Origin: Rhodobium gokarnense
Lineage (GTDB): Bacteria; Pseudomonadota; Alphaproteobacteria; Rhizobiales; Rhodobiaceae
Reading direction: 5' to 3'
Length of the DNA: 64,000 nt
Assembly: GCF_025961475.1 (NCBI RefSeq)
Contig: NZ_JAOQNS010000001.1
Location: 248,001-312,000, forward strand
Numbering within the stretch: the stretch's first letter is position 1; each line of letters starts with the position of its first letter. The position numbers and the translations under genes were made by a program. Positions 55,301-64,000 of this stretch are shown piece by piece. The notes under the pieces were generated by a model. The model saw only the letters and a program-made list of their open reading frames with translations. It made no database searches and was not told the origin of the DNA.

Positions 55301-56770
55301 TTACCGCGCGAGCCCCAAAAGCGCGTCGAGGTCGAGGTCCTGTTCCAATTCGCCGGCAAAGGCGTCGAGGGCGGCTTCCACGGCCTCTTCGTACTGGTGC
55401 CTCGATGCCGCGCCGCCCATTTCCGAAATCCAGTGGCTCCTGAACGCGTCTGCGGAAAAGAGGCCGTGCAGGTAGCCGCCCATGATGCGACCGTCGGGCG
55501 AGACGGCGCCTTCGGGGCGGCCATCGAGCCTTAGCCAGGGGCGGACGAGGCCGGGGCCTTCCGTTGTGCCCATGTGCATCTCGTAGCCGGTGACGCGAGT
55601 GCCGCTGATCTCCTCAGACGCGTCGATCGCCACGAGGCGCTTTTGCGGGCCGATGGTGGTTGCGATGTCGAGGAGGCCGAGGCCCGGCGTCTCGCCAGCG
55701 GGGCCTTCGATGCCGTCCGGATCGCGCACGACATTCCCAAGCATCTGGAAGCCGGCGCAGATGCCGACGACGCGACCGCCGCGGCGATGGTGGGCGCGGA
55801 TGTCGATGTCCCAGCCTTCCTTGCGCAAGGCATCGAGCGCGGCACGGGTGTTTTTCGAGCCCGGCAGCAGCACGACGTCGGCGTCGGCCGGGAGCGGCGT
55901 TCCGGGGCGGATCCAGCTCACCTCCACGCCCGGTTCGGCGGCGAGGGGATCGAGGTCGTCGAAATTGGAGATGCGCGGAATCTGCGGCACGGCGACGACG
56001 AGGCCGGTGCCGCCCTTGGTGCGTTTTTCCAGCGCCAAGGAATCCTCCGGCGGCAGGGCGCGGACGGCCTCGGACCACCTGATGAGGCCAAGGACGGGCC
56101 AGCCGGTCTCTGCTTCGATGTCGTTCGCCGCCGGGGCGAAGACGGCGGGATCGCCACGGAATTTGTTGACGAGGATGCCGGCGACGCGGGCGCGTTCGGT
56201 TTCGGTCCAGAGCTGGTGGGCGCCGATGGCGGAGGCCGTGACGCCGCCGCGGGACTCATCGCCGAGCAGCAGCACGGGAAGATCCGCCGCCTCGGCAAGG
56301 CCCATATTGGAGATGTCCTGGGGGCGCAGATAGCGCTCGGCGCCGCAGCCGGCGCCTTCGATCAGGACGAGGTCGCGGTCCCCTGACAGCCTGTCGAGGG
56401 ACGCGACGACAGCCGCGCGCAGGCTCGGCTTCAGGCGCTGGTAGGCGCTGGCGGAATAGCGGCCGAGGACTTTGCCCGTAACGATCACCTGAGCGTCGAC
56501 ATCAGTCTCTGGCTTGAGGAGGACGGGGTTCATGTCGGTAAGGAGCGGCGTCTTTGCGGCGCGGGCCTGCAAGGCCTGGGCGCGGCCGATCTCGCCGCCA
56601 TCCGCCGTGACGGCGGCATTGTTCGACATGTTCTGGGCCTTGAAGGGCGCGACCTCGAGGCCGCGCCTTGCATAGGCGCGGCAGAGGCCGGCGACGACGA
56701 GGCTCTTTCCGACGTCCGAGCCGGTGCCCATGACCATCAGCCGGCGGGCGCGACCCATGGAGGAGGTCAT
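55301..56770 (-). CDS. cobQ: Cobyric acid synthase, copy A (diverged)
   Basis: A 489-residue CobQ: DTBS-like domain with GTGSDVGKS (15-23) and EGAGCGAERYLRPQD (138-152), glutaminase domain with C338 (GICAGFQMLG) and H435 (GYLHGLF). CobQ amidates side chains b, d, e and g. It directly follows a second cobQ, overlapping by four bases. The usual DRGG motif reads SRGG here (S173), an unusual change near the ATP/substrate site. Its C-terminal half is very similar to copy B, the N-terminal half much less so. Confidence 0.88.
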   Translation of the reverse strand: MTSSMGRARRLMVMGTGSDVGKSLVVAGLCRAYARRGLEVAPFKAQNMSNNAAVTADGGEIGRAQALQARAAKTPLLTDMNPVLLKPETDVDAQVIVTGKVLGRYSASAYQRLKPSLRAAVVASLDRLSGDRDLVLIEGAGCGAERYLRPQDISNMGLAEAADLPVLLLGDESRGGVTASAIGAHQLWTETERARVAGILVNKFRGDPAVFAPAANDIEAETGWPVLGLIRWSEAVRALPPEDSLALEKRTKGGTGLVVAVPQIPRISNFDDLDPLAAEPGVEVSWIRPGTPLPADADVVLLPGSKNTRAALDALRKEGWDIDIRAHHRRGGRVVGICAGFQMLGNVVRDPDGIEGPAGETPGLGLLDIATTIGPQKRLVAIDASEEISGTRVTGYEMHMGTTEGPGLVRPWLRLDGRPEGAVSPDGRIMGGYLHGLFSADAFRSHWISEMGGAASRHQYEEAVEAALDAFAGELEQDLDLDALLGLAR

Positions 56771-58341
56771 TTTGCCAGCGCCAGCAGCGCGTCGAGGTCG
56801 AGGTCCTGTTCGAGCTGGTCGGCAAGGGCATCGAGGGCCGCGTCGACCTCTGCCTGGTAGCGGCGTTCCGAGGCCGCGCCGCCGACTTCGGCGATCCAGT
56901 GGCGCCGGAATCCGTCGGCGCCGAAGATGCCGTGGAGGTAGCCGCCCATGACCCGGCCGTCGGGCGACATGGCGCCTTCGGGGCGGCCGTCGAGGCGGAA
57001 CCAGGGGTTTTTCAGGCCGGGGCCTTCGGTGCGGCCCATATGCATTTCGTAGCCGGTAACCCTCGTGCCGCTGACAGCGTCGTCGGCGTCGATTTCCACG
57101 AGCCGCTTGTCGCCGCCGATCGTCGTTTCGATGTCGAGGAGGCCGAGGCCGCGGGTCTCGCCCGGCGGGCCCTCGATGCCGTGGGGATCGCGCACGACCG
57201 TTCCCAGCATCTGGAAACCGGCGCAGATGCCGACGACGCGACCGCCGCGCCGGTGGTGGGCGAGGATGTCGATGTCCCAGCCTTCGGCGATGATCGTATC
57301 GAGGGCGGCGCGGGTGGTCTTGGACCCGGGCAGGAGCACCACGTCGGCATCGGCCGGGATCGGCCGTCCGGGGCGCACCCAGCGAAGGTCGACGCCGGGC
57401 TCACTCGATAACGGGTCGAGGTCGTCGAAATTGGCCATGCGCGAGATCTGCGGCACGGCGATGACGAGGCTGCCGCCCTCGCTGCGGGCCGGGCGGGCGA
57501 GCGCCAGAGCGTCCTCGGCCGGCAGGTGATCGGCGGTGTCGAACCAGCGCACGACGCCGAGCAGAGGCCAGCCGGTCTTTTCCGTCATGACGTCGCAGCC
57601 GGGCTCATAGAGCGAGAAATAGCCGCGGAACTTGTTGACGATGTAGCCGCGGATGCGGGCGCGCTCGGCATCGTCGTGCAGCAGCCAGGAGCCGACGACG
57701 GCGGCGATCGCCCCGCCCCGGTCGTTGTCGGTGAGGAGCACCACCGGCAGGTCGGCGACCTCAGCGAGCTTCATGTTGGTGATGTCGCAGTGGCGTAAGT
57801 AAACCTCGGTGCCGCTGCCGGCGCCTTCCACCAGCACCAGATCCGCATCGGCGGCAATGCGCCGGTAGCTGTCCATGATCGCCGGAAGCAGCATGGGTTT
57901 GAGGTTGTGGTAGTGCCGTGCCGGCCAGTTGCCGAGCGCGCGGCCGCGCAGGACGACCTGCGAGCCGACGAGGGCCTGGGGTTTTAACAGCACCGGGTTC
58001 ATGTGGATGGAGGCGGCAAGGCCGGAGGCGCGGGCCTGGAGGGCCTGGGCGCGGCCGATCTCGCCGCGCGGGGCGGGGGCGTCCGGGCCATCCTCAAGGT
58101 CGCTGTCGACGGTGACGGCGGCGTTGTTCGACATGTTCTGGGCTTTGAAGGGGGCAACCTTCAGGCCGCGCCGGGTGTAGGCCCGGCAGAGGCCGGCGAC
58201 CAAGAGGCTCTTGCCGACGTCGGAGCTCGTTCCCTGGATCATCAGCGAGCGGCCGCGGCGCGGCGGCGCCGGGTCGAGCATCGGCACCGTAATGTCGGGC
58301 AGGGGCGGGCAGTCGTCGGGGAACGGGGGACGCGTGTTCAT
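56767..58341 (-). CDS. cobQ: Cobyric acid synthase, copy B
   Basis: A 524-residue CobQ with a 32-residue Pro-rich N-terminal extension before the P-loop segment QGTSSDVGKS (36-45). The canonical DRGG (207-210), C373 and H470 are present. A 14-residue insertion (about 79-92, Asp/Pro-rich) follows MSNNAAVT. With standard motifs it is the likelier main cobyric acid synthase. The ATG at 58341 is chosen. It is upstream of copy A and downstream of cobO in the same direction. Confidence 0.92.
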   Translation of the reverse strand: MNTRPPFPDDCPPLPDITVPMLDPAPPRRGRSLMIQGTSSDVGKSLLVAGLCRAYTRRGLKVAPFKAQNMSNNAAVTVDSDLEDGPDAPAPRGEIGRAQALQARASGLAASIHMNPVLLKPQALVGSQVVLRGRALGNWPARHYHNLKPMLLPAIMDSYRRIAADADLVLVEGAGSGTEVYLRHCDITNMKLAEVADLPVVLLTDNDRGGAIAAVVGSWLLHDDAERARIRGYIVNKFRGYFSLYEPGCDVMTEKTGWPLLGVVRWFDTADHLPAEDALALARPARSEGGSLVIAVPQISRMANFDDLDPLSSEPGVDLRWVRPGRPIPADADVVLLPGSKTTRAALDTIIAEGWDIDILAHHRRGGRVVGICAGFQMLGTVVRDPHGIEGPPGETRGLGLLDIETTIGGDKRLVEIDADDAVSGTRVTGYEMHMGRTEGPGLKNPWFRLDGRPEGAMSPDGRVMGGYLHGIFGADGFRRHWIAEVGGAASERRYQAEVDAALDALADQLEQDLDLDALLALAK

Positions 58342-58484
58342 TGGGATTCTGTCGCGGGCATGCCTTGCGGATCGTCGGGCGCGCGAACGCGCCACCGTCC
58401 TTGTCAAGCAAGCGGAGCGTCCAGTGTCAATCGGGCTTTACGCGGATGCGGCGGGATCGCGTCGCGGCGAGGGCACCTTGCCGC

Positions 58485-59099
58485 TCAGAACTCCACGCCG
58501 GGCTGGCCCTTGATGCCGGAGCGGAACGGGTGCTTGACGAGGGTCATCTCGGTGACGAGGTCGGCAGCCTCGATGAGGGCGTCCTTGGCGTTGCGGCCGG
58601 TCAGCACGACATGGGTCAACGGCGGCTTTTCGGCTTCCAGGAAGTCGAGGATCTCCTGAACATCGAGATAGTCGTAGCGCAGCGCGATGTTGATCTCGTC
58701 GAGCAGCACCATGCGGATGCTCTCGTCGCGGATCAGCTCCTTGGCTTTTTCCCAGCCGGCGCGGGCGGCGGCGATGTCGCGCTCTCGGTCCTGGGTCTCC
58801 CAGGTGAAGCCCTCGCCCATGGCATAAAACTGACAGAGATCGCCGAAATGGCCGGTCAAAAGGCGCCGCTCGCCGGTGTCCCAGGCGCCCTTGACGAACT
58901 GGACGACCGCGCACGGCATTTCGTGGGCGATGCAGCGCAGGATCATGCCGAAGCCGGAGGAGGACTTTCCCTTGCCTGTGCCGGTGTGGACAATGATCAG
59001 GCCCTTTTCGCCGGATTTCGTCGCCATGATCTTGTCGCGGGCGGCCTTCTTCTTGGCCATCTTCTCGGCGTGGCGGGCATTGGAGGGGGCGTCGGTCAT
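58485..59099 (-). CDS. cobO: Cob(I)yrinic acid a,c-diamide adenosyltransferase
   Basis: A 204-residue CobA/CobO-family adenosyltransferase: modified P-loop GTGKGKSSS (about 40-48), VQFVKGAWDTGERRLL, and the Walker-B-like LLDEINIALRYDYL. It attaches the adenosyl group to the reduced corrin. The ATG at 59099 gives the typical N-terminal Lys-rich helix that caps the ATP site. It is the first gene of the cobO-cobQ-cobQ run. Confidence 0.94.
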   Translation of the reverse strand: MTDAPSNARHAEKMAKKKAARDKIMATKSGEKGLIIVHTGTGKGKSSSGFGMILRCIAHEMPCAVVQFVKGAWDTGERRLLTGHFGDLCQFYAMGEGFTWETQDRERDIAAARAGWEKAKELIRDESIRMVLLDEINIALRYDYLDVQEILDFLEAEKPPLTHVVLTGRNAKDALIEAADLVTEMTLVKHPFRSGIKGQPGVEF

Positions 59100-59202
59100 T
59101 GGCGCTCCTTGGCAGGGTGATTCCACACCGCGCACAGTAGGGGGTTTGCCTCGTCGGTCCAATGCAAAGGCCGGCCGGTCACGATCGGCCGCCAAAGCGC
59201 GA

Positions 59203-59922
59203 TCAGTCGCGTTCGTTGGCGAAATCGCGGGCAAAGGGCGCGCCGGACTTGTGGATGTGGACATCCGCCGAGCTGTCGAACGAAAGACCCCATGCCTTGC
59301 CGAGCTTGGCGAACTTGTCGGCGTCGTAGAGCTCACCGGCGAAAAAGCGGTCGGCGGGCTTGTCCTCGAAAAACGCCCTGACCTGAAGACGATGATTGTT
59401 GAAGGCACGGACGTAGATCTCCTCCGCGCCTTCGATTCTCAATTGCGGTTCCACGCCGGCATCGAGCAGGGCATAATAGTCGGAAAGCCGGTCGTAGACC
59501 ATGGAATGCCGCTTCGGATCGCCCGGGGCGAACCCCTTGGAATGGGACTTCATGGATTTCAGCCAGTCCTCGACCGGCCTTGAAAAGTAGACGAAGCGTG
59601 CGTCTGGAAAGGTCCAGTAGAGATATTTGAACAGCGGCGGATGGTACCATGGACCGTCCTCGAAGACGGTGTGGGACCGGAAGTCCTCGCTGTCGAGAAT
59701 ATCCTTGAAACGCCCTTCCAGCGACGCGAGCGGCCACTGATTGCGGGCCGTTTCGTTCCAGCTCGCCGCCGTGTATCCGTTGCGGCGGAAGAACTGTGAA
59801 AACGACTTCGTTCCGCAACGCTGCGGCGAGATGTAGAAGATCTTGCCGGACGCGTTCGCACGCGTGTCTTCCGTCCGCGCGGCGGCGCCCGCCCCGCCGC
59901 GCTCGCTGGAACCCGATTCCAT
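59203..59922 (-). CDS. Sulfotransferase-family protein
   Basis: A 239-residue cytosolic protein. The 5'-phosphosulfate loop is SPQRCGTKSF (32-41) and the 3'-phosphate site is FVYFSRPVEDWLKSMKSHS, with R115 and S123 correctly spaced. It would transfer sulfate from PAPS to a hydroxyl or amine of a glycan or small molecule. It starts two bases after the stop of the SGNH/nucleotidyltransferase fusion gene, so the two are surely cotranscribed and probably act on the same product. Acceptor unknown. Confidence 0.8.
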   Translation of the reverse strand: MESGSSERGGAGAAARTEDTRANASGKIFYISPQRCGTKSFSQFFRRNGYTAASWNETARNQWPLASLEGRFKDILDSEDFRSHTVFEDGPWYHPPLFKYLYWTFPDARFVYFSRPVEDWLKSMKSHSKGFAPGDPKRHSMVYDRLSDYYALLDAGVEPQLRIEGAEEIYVRAFNNHRLQVRAFFEDKPADRFFAGELYDADKFAKLGKAWGLSFDSSADVHIHKSGAPFARDFANERD

Positions 59923-59924
59923 GC

Positions 59925-61925
59925 CTAGGCGACCTTTTCCCCGTACCGTTCGACCAGATAGCGATGCGTCGGCGGCGGCACGATCCGTGCGATTCCGTCG
60001 AAATCGCCCGCTTTCAGGAGACGCCGTACCGTCGAAGCGCTGATCACGGTGCCTTCTTTGCTGATGCGGGGGATGATGTCCACCTTGATCCCGTATTCGG
60101 GCAGGAGCTCGGCCATCTTCTCATTGTATTGGCGCGTGATGTTGCAGGTCGGCTCATAACCGAGGAAGATCACCGAAATCCCCATCGGTGGGGCGATATA
60201 TTCCGCAAAGAACCATGCCTCCATGGAGGCATCCGCCCGCACCTCGCTTACGTCGTCCTTGGAAAAATATTCCGGGAAGGTGAGCTCGGTGCAAATATAG
60301 CGTCCACCTTTCAGCACGGTCACGTTCTTCAGGTGCGCCGTGCCTTCGGTGACCAGTCGCAGGCGATCCTCGAAGGGAAAGAAGCTGAGGTCCTCTTCGA
60401 TCACGAAGAGATAGAGATGATCCACCTTCGAGGCCGCATATTCGATCAGGTGGAGATGGCCGAGCGTCATCGGATTGCAGTTGACGGCCACGCTGCCGAT
60501 CTTTCCGGCCCGCCCTGCGCTCACGTCGCGCACGTATTCCACATAATCCTTGAGGGCACCGCATTCGACGACGTCCGCGGCGTTGCGGTAGATCAGGTAT
60601 TTGACGAAATCGATCGACGGATGCGCCGTGATGGTGTCACCCGACGCCTTGGCATGCCTGGCCTCGCCGGCCTCGATCATGGCATGGATCTTCTCTGCGA
60701 CGATCCGGTTGCCCTTCGGCCCGACATGGGAATGGTCGAAGAACACTTCGCCAAGTTCGTGCGGGCGCGAGAAATCGACGTGGAGGGCTTCCAGATCCTC
60801 CAACTCCGCCGGAACCTCGAAGAGCCGGGGATACCCGAACAGCACCACGACGTCGCCTTCTTCGACGCGCGTCTGGTAGAGATTGTTGAGGCAGACCAGC
60901 AGGGGATTGCCACGCAGGCCGTGGTTCTCAACGGCCCGGGGCTCGCCGCCGCTTTCGTTCAGCAGAGCCTGCAGGAAGCTCGGAACGGTGCGGGCATCGT
61001 CGCTGCCGAAACCGTAGACGTCGGAACCGCCGCACACGAGCACGCGTCGCCTTGCGCCTGCCGGCGCCCCGACCGTGCGCCGCCGGTTGCCGACGACGCT
61101 CACATACCGACTGTCATAGTTCGGCAGGACCACGCGCGTCGCGTGAAGGATATGGGTCGGACCGGTGAAGATCTGATCGACATAATCCTCGTCAAATTCG
61201 GGCACGTCGTCATAGACCAGAGGAAGATGGGGTGGCATGGATTTCAGCCATTCGACCCGCTTGTGCATCTTCTCCCAGAATGCCGCCGCCAGAAGGCCGT
61301 CTTCGACGTCGGTGCGGTTCCGGACATCGAAGAGATTGTCGAGGCTCACATAAAGCAGCCGGGCCCCGCAGGACTCCACGAACCGCTTCGCGTTCGCGAG
61401 CGCGGCAAAGTGGTGCCGCTCCGTGAGAAGGCGGGAGGCTTCCAGGATCGATCTGGGGCCGGCGGCGAGCGGTCCGAGGAAGAAGAGCTGATCGAATTCC
61501 ACATCCTCGCCGTCGAATCCGCCGCCGTCGATCATGGCGATCAACAGCCGCTCCGCCGACGCCGCGTTGGCAAGCGCGGAGCGCACCTCCGCGGGCAGCT
61601 CGGCATGGGCCTTGTGCGCGGCCTCGAGTCTGCCCAGCCGCAGCAGGCATTCGAGCTTTCGTTCGGCGACCGCGGTGTCTTCCGGCCGGCGCGCGAGCCA
61701 GTCATCATAGCCAGTCAGGGCCGCATCGCGGGCGCCGCGCTGCCACAGCCGCTCGCCGAGGCGCAGTGCGACCTCCGGCTCATCGGGAAAATCTTCCAGC
61801 GCCGCGCGCAGGACGCGCTCAGCGACCAGGTCCGCGTGCGAATACGGCTCGCAGGACACGCTGCTCGGCGGATAGTTCGCGTCGATCCACGAAAACACTT
61901 TGGCAACATCGTATCGCTCCGGCAT
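59925..61925 (-). CDS. SGNH-hydrolase-like/CitC-like nucleotidyltransferase fusion protein
   Basis: A 666-residue multidomain protein. Residues about 30-125 are helical and TPR-like. Residues 295-415 look like an SGNH esterase/acyltransferase (GGSDVYGFG at 299-307; DxxH as D397-H400). Residues 475-650 form a cytidylyltransferase-fold domain like the citrate lyase ligase C-terminal domain: NPMTLGH (494-500), EEDLSFFPFEDRL, and ISASTVR (628-634). No signal peptide. Coupled to the sulfotransferase, it suggests acyl or nucleotide activation plus sulfation of a glycan or lipid. Function unknown. Confidence 0.72.
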   Translation of the reverse strand: MPERYDVAKVFSWIDANYPPSSVSCEPYSHADLVAERVLRAALEDFPDEPEVALRLGERLWQRGARDAALTGYDDWLARRPEDTAVAERKLECLLRLGRLEAAHKAHAELPAEVRSALANAASAERLLIAMIDGGGFDGEDVEFDQLFFLGPLAAGPRSILEASRLLTERHHFAALANAKRFVESCGARLLYVSLDNLFDVRNRTDVEDGLLAAAFWEKMHKRVEWLKSMPPHLPLVYDDVPEFDEDYVDQIFTGPTHILHATRVVLPNYDSRYVSVVGNRRRTVGAPAGARRRVLVCGGSDVYGFGSDDARTVPSFLQALLNESGGEPRAVENHGLRGNPLLVCLNNLYQTRVEEGDVVVLFGYPRLFEVPAELEDLEALHVDFSRPHELGEVFFDHSHVGPKGNRIVAEKIHAMIEAGEARHAKASGDTITAHPSIDFVKYLIYRNAADVVECGALKDYVEYVRDVSAGRAGKIGSVAVNCNPMTLGHLHLIEYAASKVDHLYLFVIEEDLSFFPFEDRLRLVTEGTAHLKNVTVLKGGRYICTELTFPEYFSKDDVSEVRADASMEAWFFAEYIAPPMGISVIFLGYEPTCNITRQYNEKMAELLPEYGIKVDIIPRISKEGTVISASTVRRLLKAGDFDGIARIVPPPTHRYLVERYGEKVA

Positions 61926-62209
61926 CGTGATCTCCTGTGCTGCCGCGACAACGCAAAAAGAAGGGCAATTTCATCCTGATAAACGTACGCCCGAACACAA
62001 AACGGTCCCGGAGTCTGCCCGTGACGTTCGCCGAGTCACAGTATCTCCGAGGGCCGCCAAGGTTAAAGCCAATTCTTGCAGGACGCCTGGAAAACTCCAC
62101 ATCGAAAAAGCTGCCGGGCGCGGCAGCGTCTTCGGACGCGGGGCGGCCTTTCGGTCGCCGTCGGATTCGCCGGCCACCATAAGGGGTTTCCCGGAGGGCT
62201 CCAAGGGGG
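61926..62209. other. Intergenic region upstream of the fusion gene
   Basis: A 284-base stretch between the metal permease stop (62210) and the fusion gene start (61925), both on the minus strand. GATCTCCTGT next to the start is the complement of a ribosome-binding site (AGGAGATC). The part at 61950-62050 is less GC-rich and probably holds the promoter of the two-gene unit. No terminator, repeat or RNA gene was recognised. Confidence 0.4.
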
Positions 62210-63055
62210 CTAGGCGGCGACGGTCCGCATCGAGGCGCGTCTGGTCAGGATGAGCCGGCGGACGAAGGCGACGATGAAGAGGGCGGTCAGCATCAGGACG
62301 ATGGTCGGGGCCGGGGCGCTGTCGAGGAAGAAGCTCAGATAGGTGCCGGCGATCATCGAGGCCATGCAGACGCCGATGGCGACGAACAGCATGGCGCCGA
62401 AGCGGCGGACCAGGAGAAAGGCGATGGCGCCGGGTGCGATCAGGAGCGCGATGGCGAGGATCAGCCCGGCGGCGGAAAGGGTCGCGACGATGGTCAGGGA
62501 CAGGGCCGCCAGCAGCCCGTAATGGAGCCAGGCGACGGGCAGGCCGGAGGCCTGGGCCTGCGCCGGGTCGAAGGCGTGCAGCACCAGGTCCTTCCATTTC
62601 AGGGCGATGGCGGCGGAGACGGCGGCCGAGATGAGGCCGGCGGTCCACAGCTCACCCGCCTCCACGCCCAGCATGTTGCCGAACAGGATGTGGCTGAGAT
62701 GGACGTTGGTGTCGACGGAGACGTAGAGCACGATGCCGAGGCCGAACATGCCGGAGAAGACGACGCCCATCACCGTGTCCTGCTTCACCCGGCTGTTGTA
62801 GGCGAGGTAGCCGGTGGCAAGGGCGCAGGTCATGCCGGCGAAAAAGGCGCCGACGATCAGCGGCAGGCCGAGGATGTAGGCCAGGACGACGCCGGGCAGC
62901 ACGGCATGGCTGACCGCATCGCCCATCAGGGCCCAGCCCTTCAGAACGAGAAAGCACGAGAGCAGCGCCGTTGGGACTGAGACGAGGACCGCGAGGAAGA
63001 AGGCGTTCTGCATGAAGCCGAACTGGAACGGCATCAGGAGGGTATCGAAGGACAT
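62210..63055 (-). CDS. Metal ABC transporter permease (SitD/MntB/ZnuB family)
   Basis: A 281-residue permease of the ABC-3 metal family, with about eight or nine membrane segments. The conserved GWALMGDAVSHAVLPGV and FGNMLGV segments and the SAAGLILAIALLIAPGAIAFLL helix are typical. The ATG at 63055 shares a base with the stop of the preceding permease gene (TGATG). The pair of permeases points to a SitABCD-like Mn/Fe importer; the metal cannot be read from the sequence. Confidence 0.9.
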   Translation of the reverse strand: MSFDTLLMPFQFGFMQNAFFLAVLVSVPTALLSCFLVLKGWALMGDAVSHAVLPGVVLAYILGLPLIVGAFFAGMTCALATGYLAYNSRVKQDTVMGVVFSGMFGLGIVLYVSVDTNVHLSHILFGNMLGVEAGELWTAGLISAAVSAAIALKWKDLVLHAFDPAQAQASGLPVAWLHYGLLAALSLTIVATLSAAGLILAIALLIAPGAIAFLLVRRFGAMLFVAIGVCMASMIAGTYLSFFLDSAPAPTIVLMLTALFIVAFVRRLILTRRASMRTVAA

Positions 63056-63939
63056 CAGGCGGCCTCCTCGATGCGCGCGCGCTCGCTTTCGCGGCGGACG
63101 GCGGCGGCGCGGCGGCGGGCGGCGATGAGCCCGTGCTTTGGCGCCAGCACGAATGCGGCAAGGAAGATGAGGGTCTGCAGGCAGACGATGATGCCGCCGG
63201 TGGCGCCGTCGATGAAGTAGCTCGCATAGGCGCCGAGGAAGCTCGTCGCCGTGCCGATCGCCACAGACGTCAGGATCAGTCGCGGGAAGCGGTCGCAGAG
63301 GAGGTAGGCGGTGGCGCCGGGCGTCACCACCATGGCGATGACGAGGAAGGCGCCGACGGTCTGCATGGCGGCGACGACGGAGGCGGAGAGGAGCACGAAG
63401 AAGACGGCCTTCAGGAGGCCGGGCCTCAGGCCGATGGAGCGGGCATGGTTCTCGTCGAAGAAGGTCACCATCAGGTCCTTCCACTTGGCCAGAAGCACGA
63501 CCAGCGAGACGACGCCGATGATGGCGAGCTGCAGGGTGTCCTCCGGCGTGATCGCCAGGATGTTGCCCATGGTGATGGTCTCGATGCTGATCGCCATCGG
63601 ATTGACGGAGATGAGGAAGAGGCCGAGGCCGAAGAAGGACGTGAAGATGAGACCGATGATGACGTCGACCTTGAGGCCCGACCTCTCCGACAGGAACAGC
63701 ATGGCGCCGGCCGCGAGCCCCCCGGCGACGAAGGCGCCCAGCGCAAAGGGCAGGCCGAGGATATAGGCGCCGGCAACGCCGGGCACGACGGAATGGGAGA
63801 GGGCATCGCCGATCAGCGACCAGCCCTTCAGCATCAGATAGGCCGACAGGAACGCGCAGACGCCGCCGACGAGGGCCGAGACCCACATGGCGTTGGTCAT
63901 GTAGCTGTAGCCGAAGGGCTCAAGGAGATGGGCGATCAT
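63055..63939 (-). CDS. Metal ABC transporter permease (SitC family)
   Basis: A 294-residue ABC-3 family permease, related to but distinct from its downstream partner. GWSLIGDALSHSVVPGVAGAYI and TMGNILAI match the SitC type, and a charged C-terminus (about 275-294) follows the last helix. It overlaps the upstream gene by three bases and the downstream gene by one, so the operon is tightly coupled. Two different permeases suggest a heterodimeric channel. Confidence 0.9.
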   Translation of the reverse strand: MIAHLLEPFGYSYMTNAMWVSALVGGVCAFLSAYLMLKGWSLIGDALSHSVVPGVAGAYILGLPFALGAFVAGGLAAGAMLFLSERSGLKVDVIIGLIFTSFFGLGLFLISVNPMAISIETITMGNILAITPEDTLQLAIIGVVSLVVLLAKWKDLMVTFFDENHARSIGLRPGLLKAVFFVLLSASVVAAMQTVGAFLVIAMVVTPGATAYLLCDRFPRLILTSVAIGTATSFLGAYASYFIDGATGGIIVCLQTLIFLAAFVLAPKHGLIAARRRAAAVRRESERARIEEAA

Positions 63940-64000
63940 CGGTCGGATCCGCCTTTCCGGGACCCGTCTTCCTCGCCTCCGTTCTCCTCGCGCCGGCTCT
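63936..64000 (-). CDS. 3' end of an upstream gene, probably the metal ABC ATPase
   Basis: A minus-strand frame is open from the window edge to a TGA at 63936-63938 that overlaps the permease ATG (ATGA). The visible tail is hydrophilic (Arg, Glu, Gly and Lys rich, ending GGSDR), like the C-terminal extension of SitB/MntA ATPases. Identity is inferred from gene order only. Confidence 0.5.
   Translation of the reverse strand, partial: SRREENGGEEDGSRKGGSDR

Follow-up and report, generated by a model that had tools for sequence, protein, structure and literature searches.

Citrate lyase ligase (CitC) uses ATP and acetate in an AMP-forming reaction. In the OatA and PatA/PatB systems, acetyl is described as passing from acetyl-CoA, via an acyl-Tyr of a membrane protein, to the Ser of an SGNH domain (PMC12148441), and TmcAL is presented as an ATP-dependent acetate ligase that converts ATP and acetate to acetyl-AMP (PMC7408541). 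Here we describe a gene pair of Rhodobium gokarnense, located in a 64,000-nucleotide stretch of contig NZ_JAOQNS010000001.1 (hereafter the window), in which the fusion protein P0001 joins a TPR-like region, an SGNH-like middle domain and a C-terminal CitC-type nucleotidyltransferase domain, and is followed by the sulfotransferase P0002 (Table 1). Judged from its sequence, P0001 is less likely to be a cytidylyltransferase than a carboxylate activator that forms acyl-AMP and carries a soluble acyltransferase of the SGNH type. No earlier description of an SGNH-CitC fusion turned up in literature searches.

We tentatively prefer, with less than even confidence, a scheme in which P0001 activates an acid and O-acylates an acceptor and P0002 sulfates the same or a related acceptor. 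P0001 would be a soluble, ATP-dependent O-acylating enzyme whose CitC-type domain, like citrate lyase ligase, would turn acetate or a closely related small carboxylic acid into acyl-AMP. The SGNH-like domain, standing in place of the GNAT acyltransferase of CitC, would then receive the acyl group on Ser301 and hand it to an acceptor hydroxyl, with the TPR-like region helping to hold the acceptor, and in a presumed later step P0002 would move sulfate from 3'-phosphoadenosine 5'-phosphosulfate (PAPS) onto the same or a related molecule. The acceptor would most likely be a cytoplasmic glycan or glycolipid precursor. The scheme draws on the domains, residue conservation and gene order of the pair, a segment missing in a congener, and the glycan genes around the two closest P0002 relatives found.

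The C-terminal domain of P0001 (residues 476–657) matched PF08218 at an E value of 8.4e-57 (192.2 bits, cut-off 20.9), against 18.5 bits for CTP_transf_like. Since the match is to CitC, acyl-adenylate formation looks likelier than nucleotidyl transfer with CTP, the activation step envisaged in an earlier reading of the locus made from the sequence alone (the sequence-only reading). TIGR00124, the curated CitC profile, gave 181.7 bits for P0001, 184.5 and 173.4 bits for two fusion relatives, and 197.7 bits for protein UQZ91357.1 of the deltaproteobacterial Smac51, all under the cut-off of 262.1, and aligned to P0001 only from profile position 124 and to the fusions only from position 121–124 onward. 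A GNAT domain (PF00583) lies ahead of the CitC domain in the two CitC proteins checked (24.0 and 21.1 bits, cut-off 20.7), whereas Pfam gave no GNAT match in P0001. The replacement of this GNAT by an SGNH-like domain suggests, from architecture and residues, that a soluble enzyme may load its SGNH Ser from acyl-AMP.

The fusion domains formed one clade (support 100/99) apart from 13 CitC-sized proteins, two of which lie in citrate lyase operons and two of which were those checked for GNAT, the others being called CitC by length. The Smac51 protein joined the fusions on this tree, a join flagged as possibly false owing to long branches. The alignment covered ten fusion copies, the plasmid copy being partial, and the eleventh (G1186) was read by eye. 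Shared by 13/13 CitC-sized proteins and 10/10 fusions are the signature residues N482, N484-P485, T487, G489-H490, E511-D512, R521, T549, P551 and Y553-F554, and further G589, E591-P592, T597, Y600-N601, S629-A630-S631 and V633-R634; the CitC-specific stretches T-x-P-x-YF and GxEPxCxxTxxYN are retained in the fusions. Overall, 34 of the 50 positions invariant in the CitC-sized proteins are kept in all ten fusions.

The middle domain of P0001 carries the motifs GGS-301, NHG-336/339 and D397-H-S-H400. The block I Ser and block II Gly of the SGNH pattern are present, in a register that agrees with alignments to the esterases 9otv and 4jgg, and S301, G336, G339, D397 and H400 are reported as invariant in 10/10 aligned members, though the Asp-His spacing varies. 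Block V reads DHSH in P0001 and DQSH in the Roseovarius relative, placing Asp at −3 from His in these two of ten members. In the structure model of P0001 the SGNH-like region alternates strands and helices; because the model is middling (mean predicted local distance difference test score, pLDDT, 66.5), no active-site geometry is argued. The TPR-like region matched TPR_19 marginally (residues 35–87, 25.2 bits, cut-off 25) and is variable and poorly conserved among the aligned relatives.

Several statements of the sequence-only reading were borne out. Open reading frames and sequence place the two genes as that reading had them, with two bases between the P0001 stop and the P0002 ATG, and the domain make-up is confirmed, the CitC-type and sulfotransferase domains by Pfam, the TPR marginally and the SGNH-like domain by motifs. 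The absence of citrate lyase genes stands for CitC, P0001 being the single PF08218 match in the genome, so that there is no second CitC; for the other subunits, no citDEF was noticed by eye among open reading frames of at least 100 amino acids (aa) at 50–64 kb of the window, no profile or genome-wide search for them having been made. A function apart from citrate lyase is supported by the single PF08218 gene together with the absent GNAT part. Likewise, no second CitC was found at E ≤ 1e-40 in three Vibrionaceae fusion genomes, a limit that the weakest CitC-sized matches barely pass.

P0001 is a real, rare and conserved fusion. Eleven copies were found including that of the window, the ten others belonging to Roseovarius and Vibrionales. 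A two-sequence alignment query of a genome contig collection returned eight relatives among 118 candidate stretches, which were selected by the patterns SMEAWFF and [RK]QYNEKM only, so that members without these were missed. The nearest relative, from Roseovarius sp. MMSF_3359, shares 53% identity over P0001 residues 26–657, and the other seven come from Vibrio, Photobacterium and a Vibrionales bacterium. A plasmid search added a Vibrio-type copy in Vibrio sp. THAF190c, and in the family to which the Vibrio fortis genome belongs the fusion occurred in three of 197 genomes, one of them new (G1186), with CitC-sized frames alone (336–387 aa) in 18 more. No second full-length P0001 was found in 150 genomes of the order (seven with a match including the window genome itself, three CitC-sized and three marginal) or in 398 of the phylum, where seven of the eight genomes with a match, all but the window's own, have CitC-sized frames of 342–416 aa; among 385 genomes of the class only the window's own matched. 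In the Roseovarius family, one of 198 genomes, that same Roseovarius, has a P0001 relative. Viral contigs gave no match, and phages gave P0001 matches in the CitC region only (three records) and none for P0002.

The pair lies on a segment of about 3 kb (about 59083–62115) that holds P0001, P0002 and little else. The congener G060 has the two flanks next to each other, 16 bases apart, window positions 57131–59082 and 62116–64000 matching at 92.3% and 91.0%, respectively; the left border could lie some tens of bases away, as the alignment stops there within the opening codons of cobO. The guanine-plus-cytosine (GC) content of the segment, 0.619, falls below the mean of 0.666 (standard deviation 0.014) elsewhere in the window, and none of 1121 overlapping windows of equal length there is as low. 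No match to P0001 or P0002 was found in the same-genus genomes searched (G012 and G060), and a search for terminal repeats at the segment edges gave nothing beyond four 9-base matches. Since the lower-GC segment that carries both genes is lacking from this site in the congener, the two probably arrived together and probably moved as a unit. Gain in the lineage of the window is the simplest reading of the segment's absence in the congener, loss elsewhere being the alternative.

P0002 matched PF17784 (Sulfotransfer_4) at E 4.2e-9 (37.0 bits, cut-off 22.8). It has in common with its 36%-identical Roseovarius relative the motifs QRxGTxS and R-x7-S, which we take to be PAPS-binding; its single-sequence structure model has a mean pLDDT of 37.4. 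The Roseovarius relative lies on a different contig from the P0001 relative, far away, and its neighbors are two PF13469 sulfotransferases, a WbqC protein, a DegT aminotransferase, a glycosyltransferase and, by eye, an ATP-binding cassette (ABC) exporter. In the Roseovarius family, P0002 relatives occur in two of 198 genomes at E < 1e-20 and in five at E ≤ 1e-8. That of the second genome adjoins, by eye, nucleotide-sugar dehydrogenase, phosphohexomutase and glycosyltransferase genes. Both of the two nearest P0002 relatives found accordingly have a glycan setting (one by Pfam, one by eye); the weaker relative L083 has none by eye, and plasmids gave no P0002 match. Adenosine 5'-phosphosulfate (APS) kinase is present in 10/10 genomes searched, so PAPS supply is no obstacle to sulfation, though the kinase is common (11 of 14 control genomes).

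Several observations weigh against the coupling of P0001 to sulfation. By tblastn, no P0002-like gene was found near the fusion relatives in 11 stretches, including that of Smac51 (best E 0.21), or in the stretch of the eleventh fusion copy (best E 0.46). Among ten genomes or records searched (two plasmid records standing for the plasmids only, and the genome of L029 left out), P0002 relatives occurred only in the window genome and Roseovarius, eight of the nine others having none at E ≤ 0.001. A phmmer search of five sulfotransferases against 904 frames of at least 60 aa in the 11 stretches found no other sulfotransferase family at E ≤ 0.1, a test that is insensitive across families, since in a control the Smac51 enzyme missed two PF13469 proteins of L037. 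Further, no glycan genes were seen at 50–64 kb, the part of the window listed, whose content around the pair is cobalamin and ABC-3 transport genes. As the other copies have no P0002-like neighbor, the sulfotransferase is not a necessary partner, and the P0001-type enzyme works without P0002 there. The same absences favor a rival explanation in which P0001 is an acid-activating acyltransferase and P0002 is independent of it, the two forming a chance pair on one transferred segment without a common substrate. We consider this somewhat unlikely, given the 2-bp spacing and a segment with little else on it; in addition, Roseovarius also carries the rare P0002 relative, a single case in a genome chosen for its P0001 gene. 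The co-occurrence of the two genes elsewhere, which the sequence-only reading had set as a test, largely fails, as no P0002 relative was found adjacent to another copy and that of Roseovarius stands far off in a glycan cluster. Its proposal of an undescribed pathway of activation, acyl transfer and sulfation gains from the domains and the probable co-arrival and loses from the lack of P0002-like genes beside other copies, leaving a sulfation pathway that is plausible though weakly supported outside the window genome; within that genome, sulfation may further modify the product of P0001.

The proposed chemistry of P0001 also faces contrary evidence. In the nucleotidyltransferase domain, 16 of the 50 CitC-invariant positions are not kept in every fusion, and ten of the 16, including H505, H538, D569, R586 and F593, are altered in all ten, so that substrate or chemistry may differ from CitC. 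In the SGNH-like domain, the block III Asn (oxyanion hole) is absent, the strand end where it would be expected being hydrophobic or aromatic, and in eight of ten members the block V His is kept with Asp at −7. Membership of the middle domain in the SGNH group rests on motifs and is sub-threshold in every profile search: Pfam gave no match in P0001 itself, PF00657 matched weakly in four of nine family members (best E 0.07), and in a profile comparison four of nine rows were GDSL/TesA-type esterases (E 0.07–1.7) and four others ribosomal proteins, two of them top-ranked. The fold matches listed for the P0001 model include no SGNH structure, which is uninformative either way because the nucleotidyltransferase domain filled the list. 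The loss of catalytic residues that would have counted against the sequence-only reading did not occur in the CitC signature motifs, the 16 positions notwithstanding; in the SGNH-like domain Ser and His are kept, the Asn is missing and the Asp-His spacing varies. Lack or non-use of this Asn is on record for two acetyltransferases, XOAT1 and PatB1 (PMC9487903). The missing Asn and variable spacing would suit an SGNH-like domain that is non-catalytic or hydrolytic, with P0001 working in the manner of CitC to acylate the thiol of a protein or carrier, on behalf of some CitD-like partner, and the retained CitC motifs fit such thiol acylation; we regard this as decidedly improbable, as Ser301 and His400 are invariant in 10/10 members. 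It is likewise improbable that the C-terminal domain is a true nucleotidyltransferase making a CDP- or ADP-activated sugar, polyol or pantetheine-like compound that the SGNH-like domain trims or edits, given the retained CitC-specific stretches and the disparity between the PF08218 and CTP_transf_like scores.

Table 1. Features of the P0001–P0002 gene pair and its surroundings, in window positions.
Feature	Position	Strand	Basis or remark
P0001 fusion protein, 666 aa	59925..61925	(-)	Open reading frame, Pfam, alignment
P0002 sulfotransferase (Sulfotransfer_4), 239 aa	59203..59922	(-)	PF17784
TPR-like region of P0001, about aa 35–110	61596..61823	(-)	TPR_19, marginal
SGNH-like domain of P0001, about aa 247–430	60636..61187	(-)	S301, G336/G339, D397, H400
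CitC-type nucleotidyltransferase domain of P0001, aa 476–657	59955..60500	(-)	PF08218
cobO, flanking gene outside the system	58485..59099	(-)	PF02572, 214 bits
Terminator-like hairpin at segment edge, after upstream ABC transporter genes	62110..62127	(-)	Weak
Extra segment with P0001 and P0002	59083..62115	no strand	Absent at same site in congener G060

A Shine-Dalgarno-like AGGAGAT precedes the ATG of P0001. The support for the hairpin is weak, five terminator-like sites having been found against 3.1 expected by chance, and Rfam gave no match at 56–64 kb of the window. An anti-phage defence role of the pair was considered and set aside, there being no PADLOC match. Two tandem CobQ-like genes (55301–56770 and 56767–58407) align to one congener cobQ region at 72% and 92% and, as both match this same region, look like diverged duplicates; the second was scanned (GATase_3, CbiA) and the first judged by eye.

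At three Vibrio loci (L027, L013/L014 and L081), the fusion gene adjoins, by eye, the same group of sigma factor, FecR-type and TonB-receptor genes, and the other flank differs, with gcv genes in two and a nirB-type gene in one, as if the fusion-gene stretch and the sigma factor group moved as a block. The Vibrio rotiferianus fusion gene is flanked by two related-looking secreted proteins (L030 5344–7185 and 13799–15589), perhaps M6-type peptidases by eye.

Among known systems, CitC (TIGR00124, PF08218) shares with P0001 the C-terminal nucleotidyltransferase domain and its signature motifs; P0001 differs in lacking GNAT, in having SGNH-like and TPR-like regions, in forming a separate clade and in falling below the TIGR00124 cut-off. 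The p_unnamed2 protein of Smac51 (L016 1–2736) likewise unites TPR and CitC domains with a GDS motif seen by eye. Its neighbors, encoded on the other strand, are a sulfonate-type ABC transporter, CysD, a PF00685 sulfotransferase and an adenylyl-sulfate kinase that looks CysNC-like by eye, and polysaccharide genes lie ahead of it across the record start. Its domain order, extra C-terminal part and opposite-strand sulfation genes set it apart from P0001, and hhalign detects no relation of its N-terminal domain to the SGNH-like domain (probability 1.3), so the locus is a parallel and not a homologous pair. On the Smac51 plasmid, L016 1–10301 and L048 bring together this protein, the PAPS synthesis genes and a 660-aa protein with a PF00685 sulfotransferase as its C-terminal half, next to a polysaccharide cluster. 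Weak matches to PF05636 (HIGH_NTase1), the family to which we take TmcAL to belong, in three relatives give a likeness to TmcAL (tRNA-Met cytidine acetate ligase), which differs in having tRNA as acceptor and no SGNH domain.

OatA (AT3-SGNH) and PatA/PatB (MBOAT, SGNH), as described, resemble the proposal for P0001 in that an SGNH-type final O-acyltransferase is fed by a donor module (PMC12148441). They use acetyl-CoA and a membrane part, whereas the proposed donor module of P0001 would be a soluble fused nucleotidyltransferase with no membrane part by eye. In its fullest form, which we regard as unlikely, the scheme would amount to CoA-independent, membrane-free glycan O-acylation, in which one cytoplasmic polypeptide passes a CitC-type acyl-AMP to its fused SGNH acyltransferase and the co-acquired sulfotransferase acts on the same molecule, a third solution to SGNH donor supply beside AT3 and MBOAT. 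If true, acyl-CoA and a membrane shuttle could be replaced, for SGNH acyltransferases, by a soluble domain that activates acids with ATP, and the CitC domain of citrate lyase would have been reused as an acid-activating module through a swapped acyltransferase partner.
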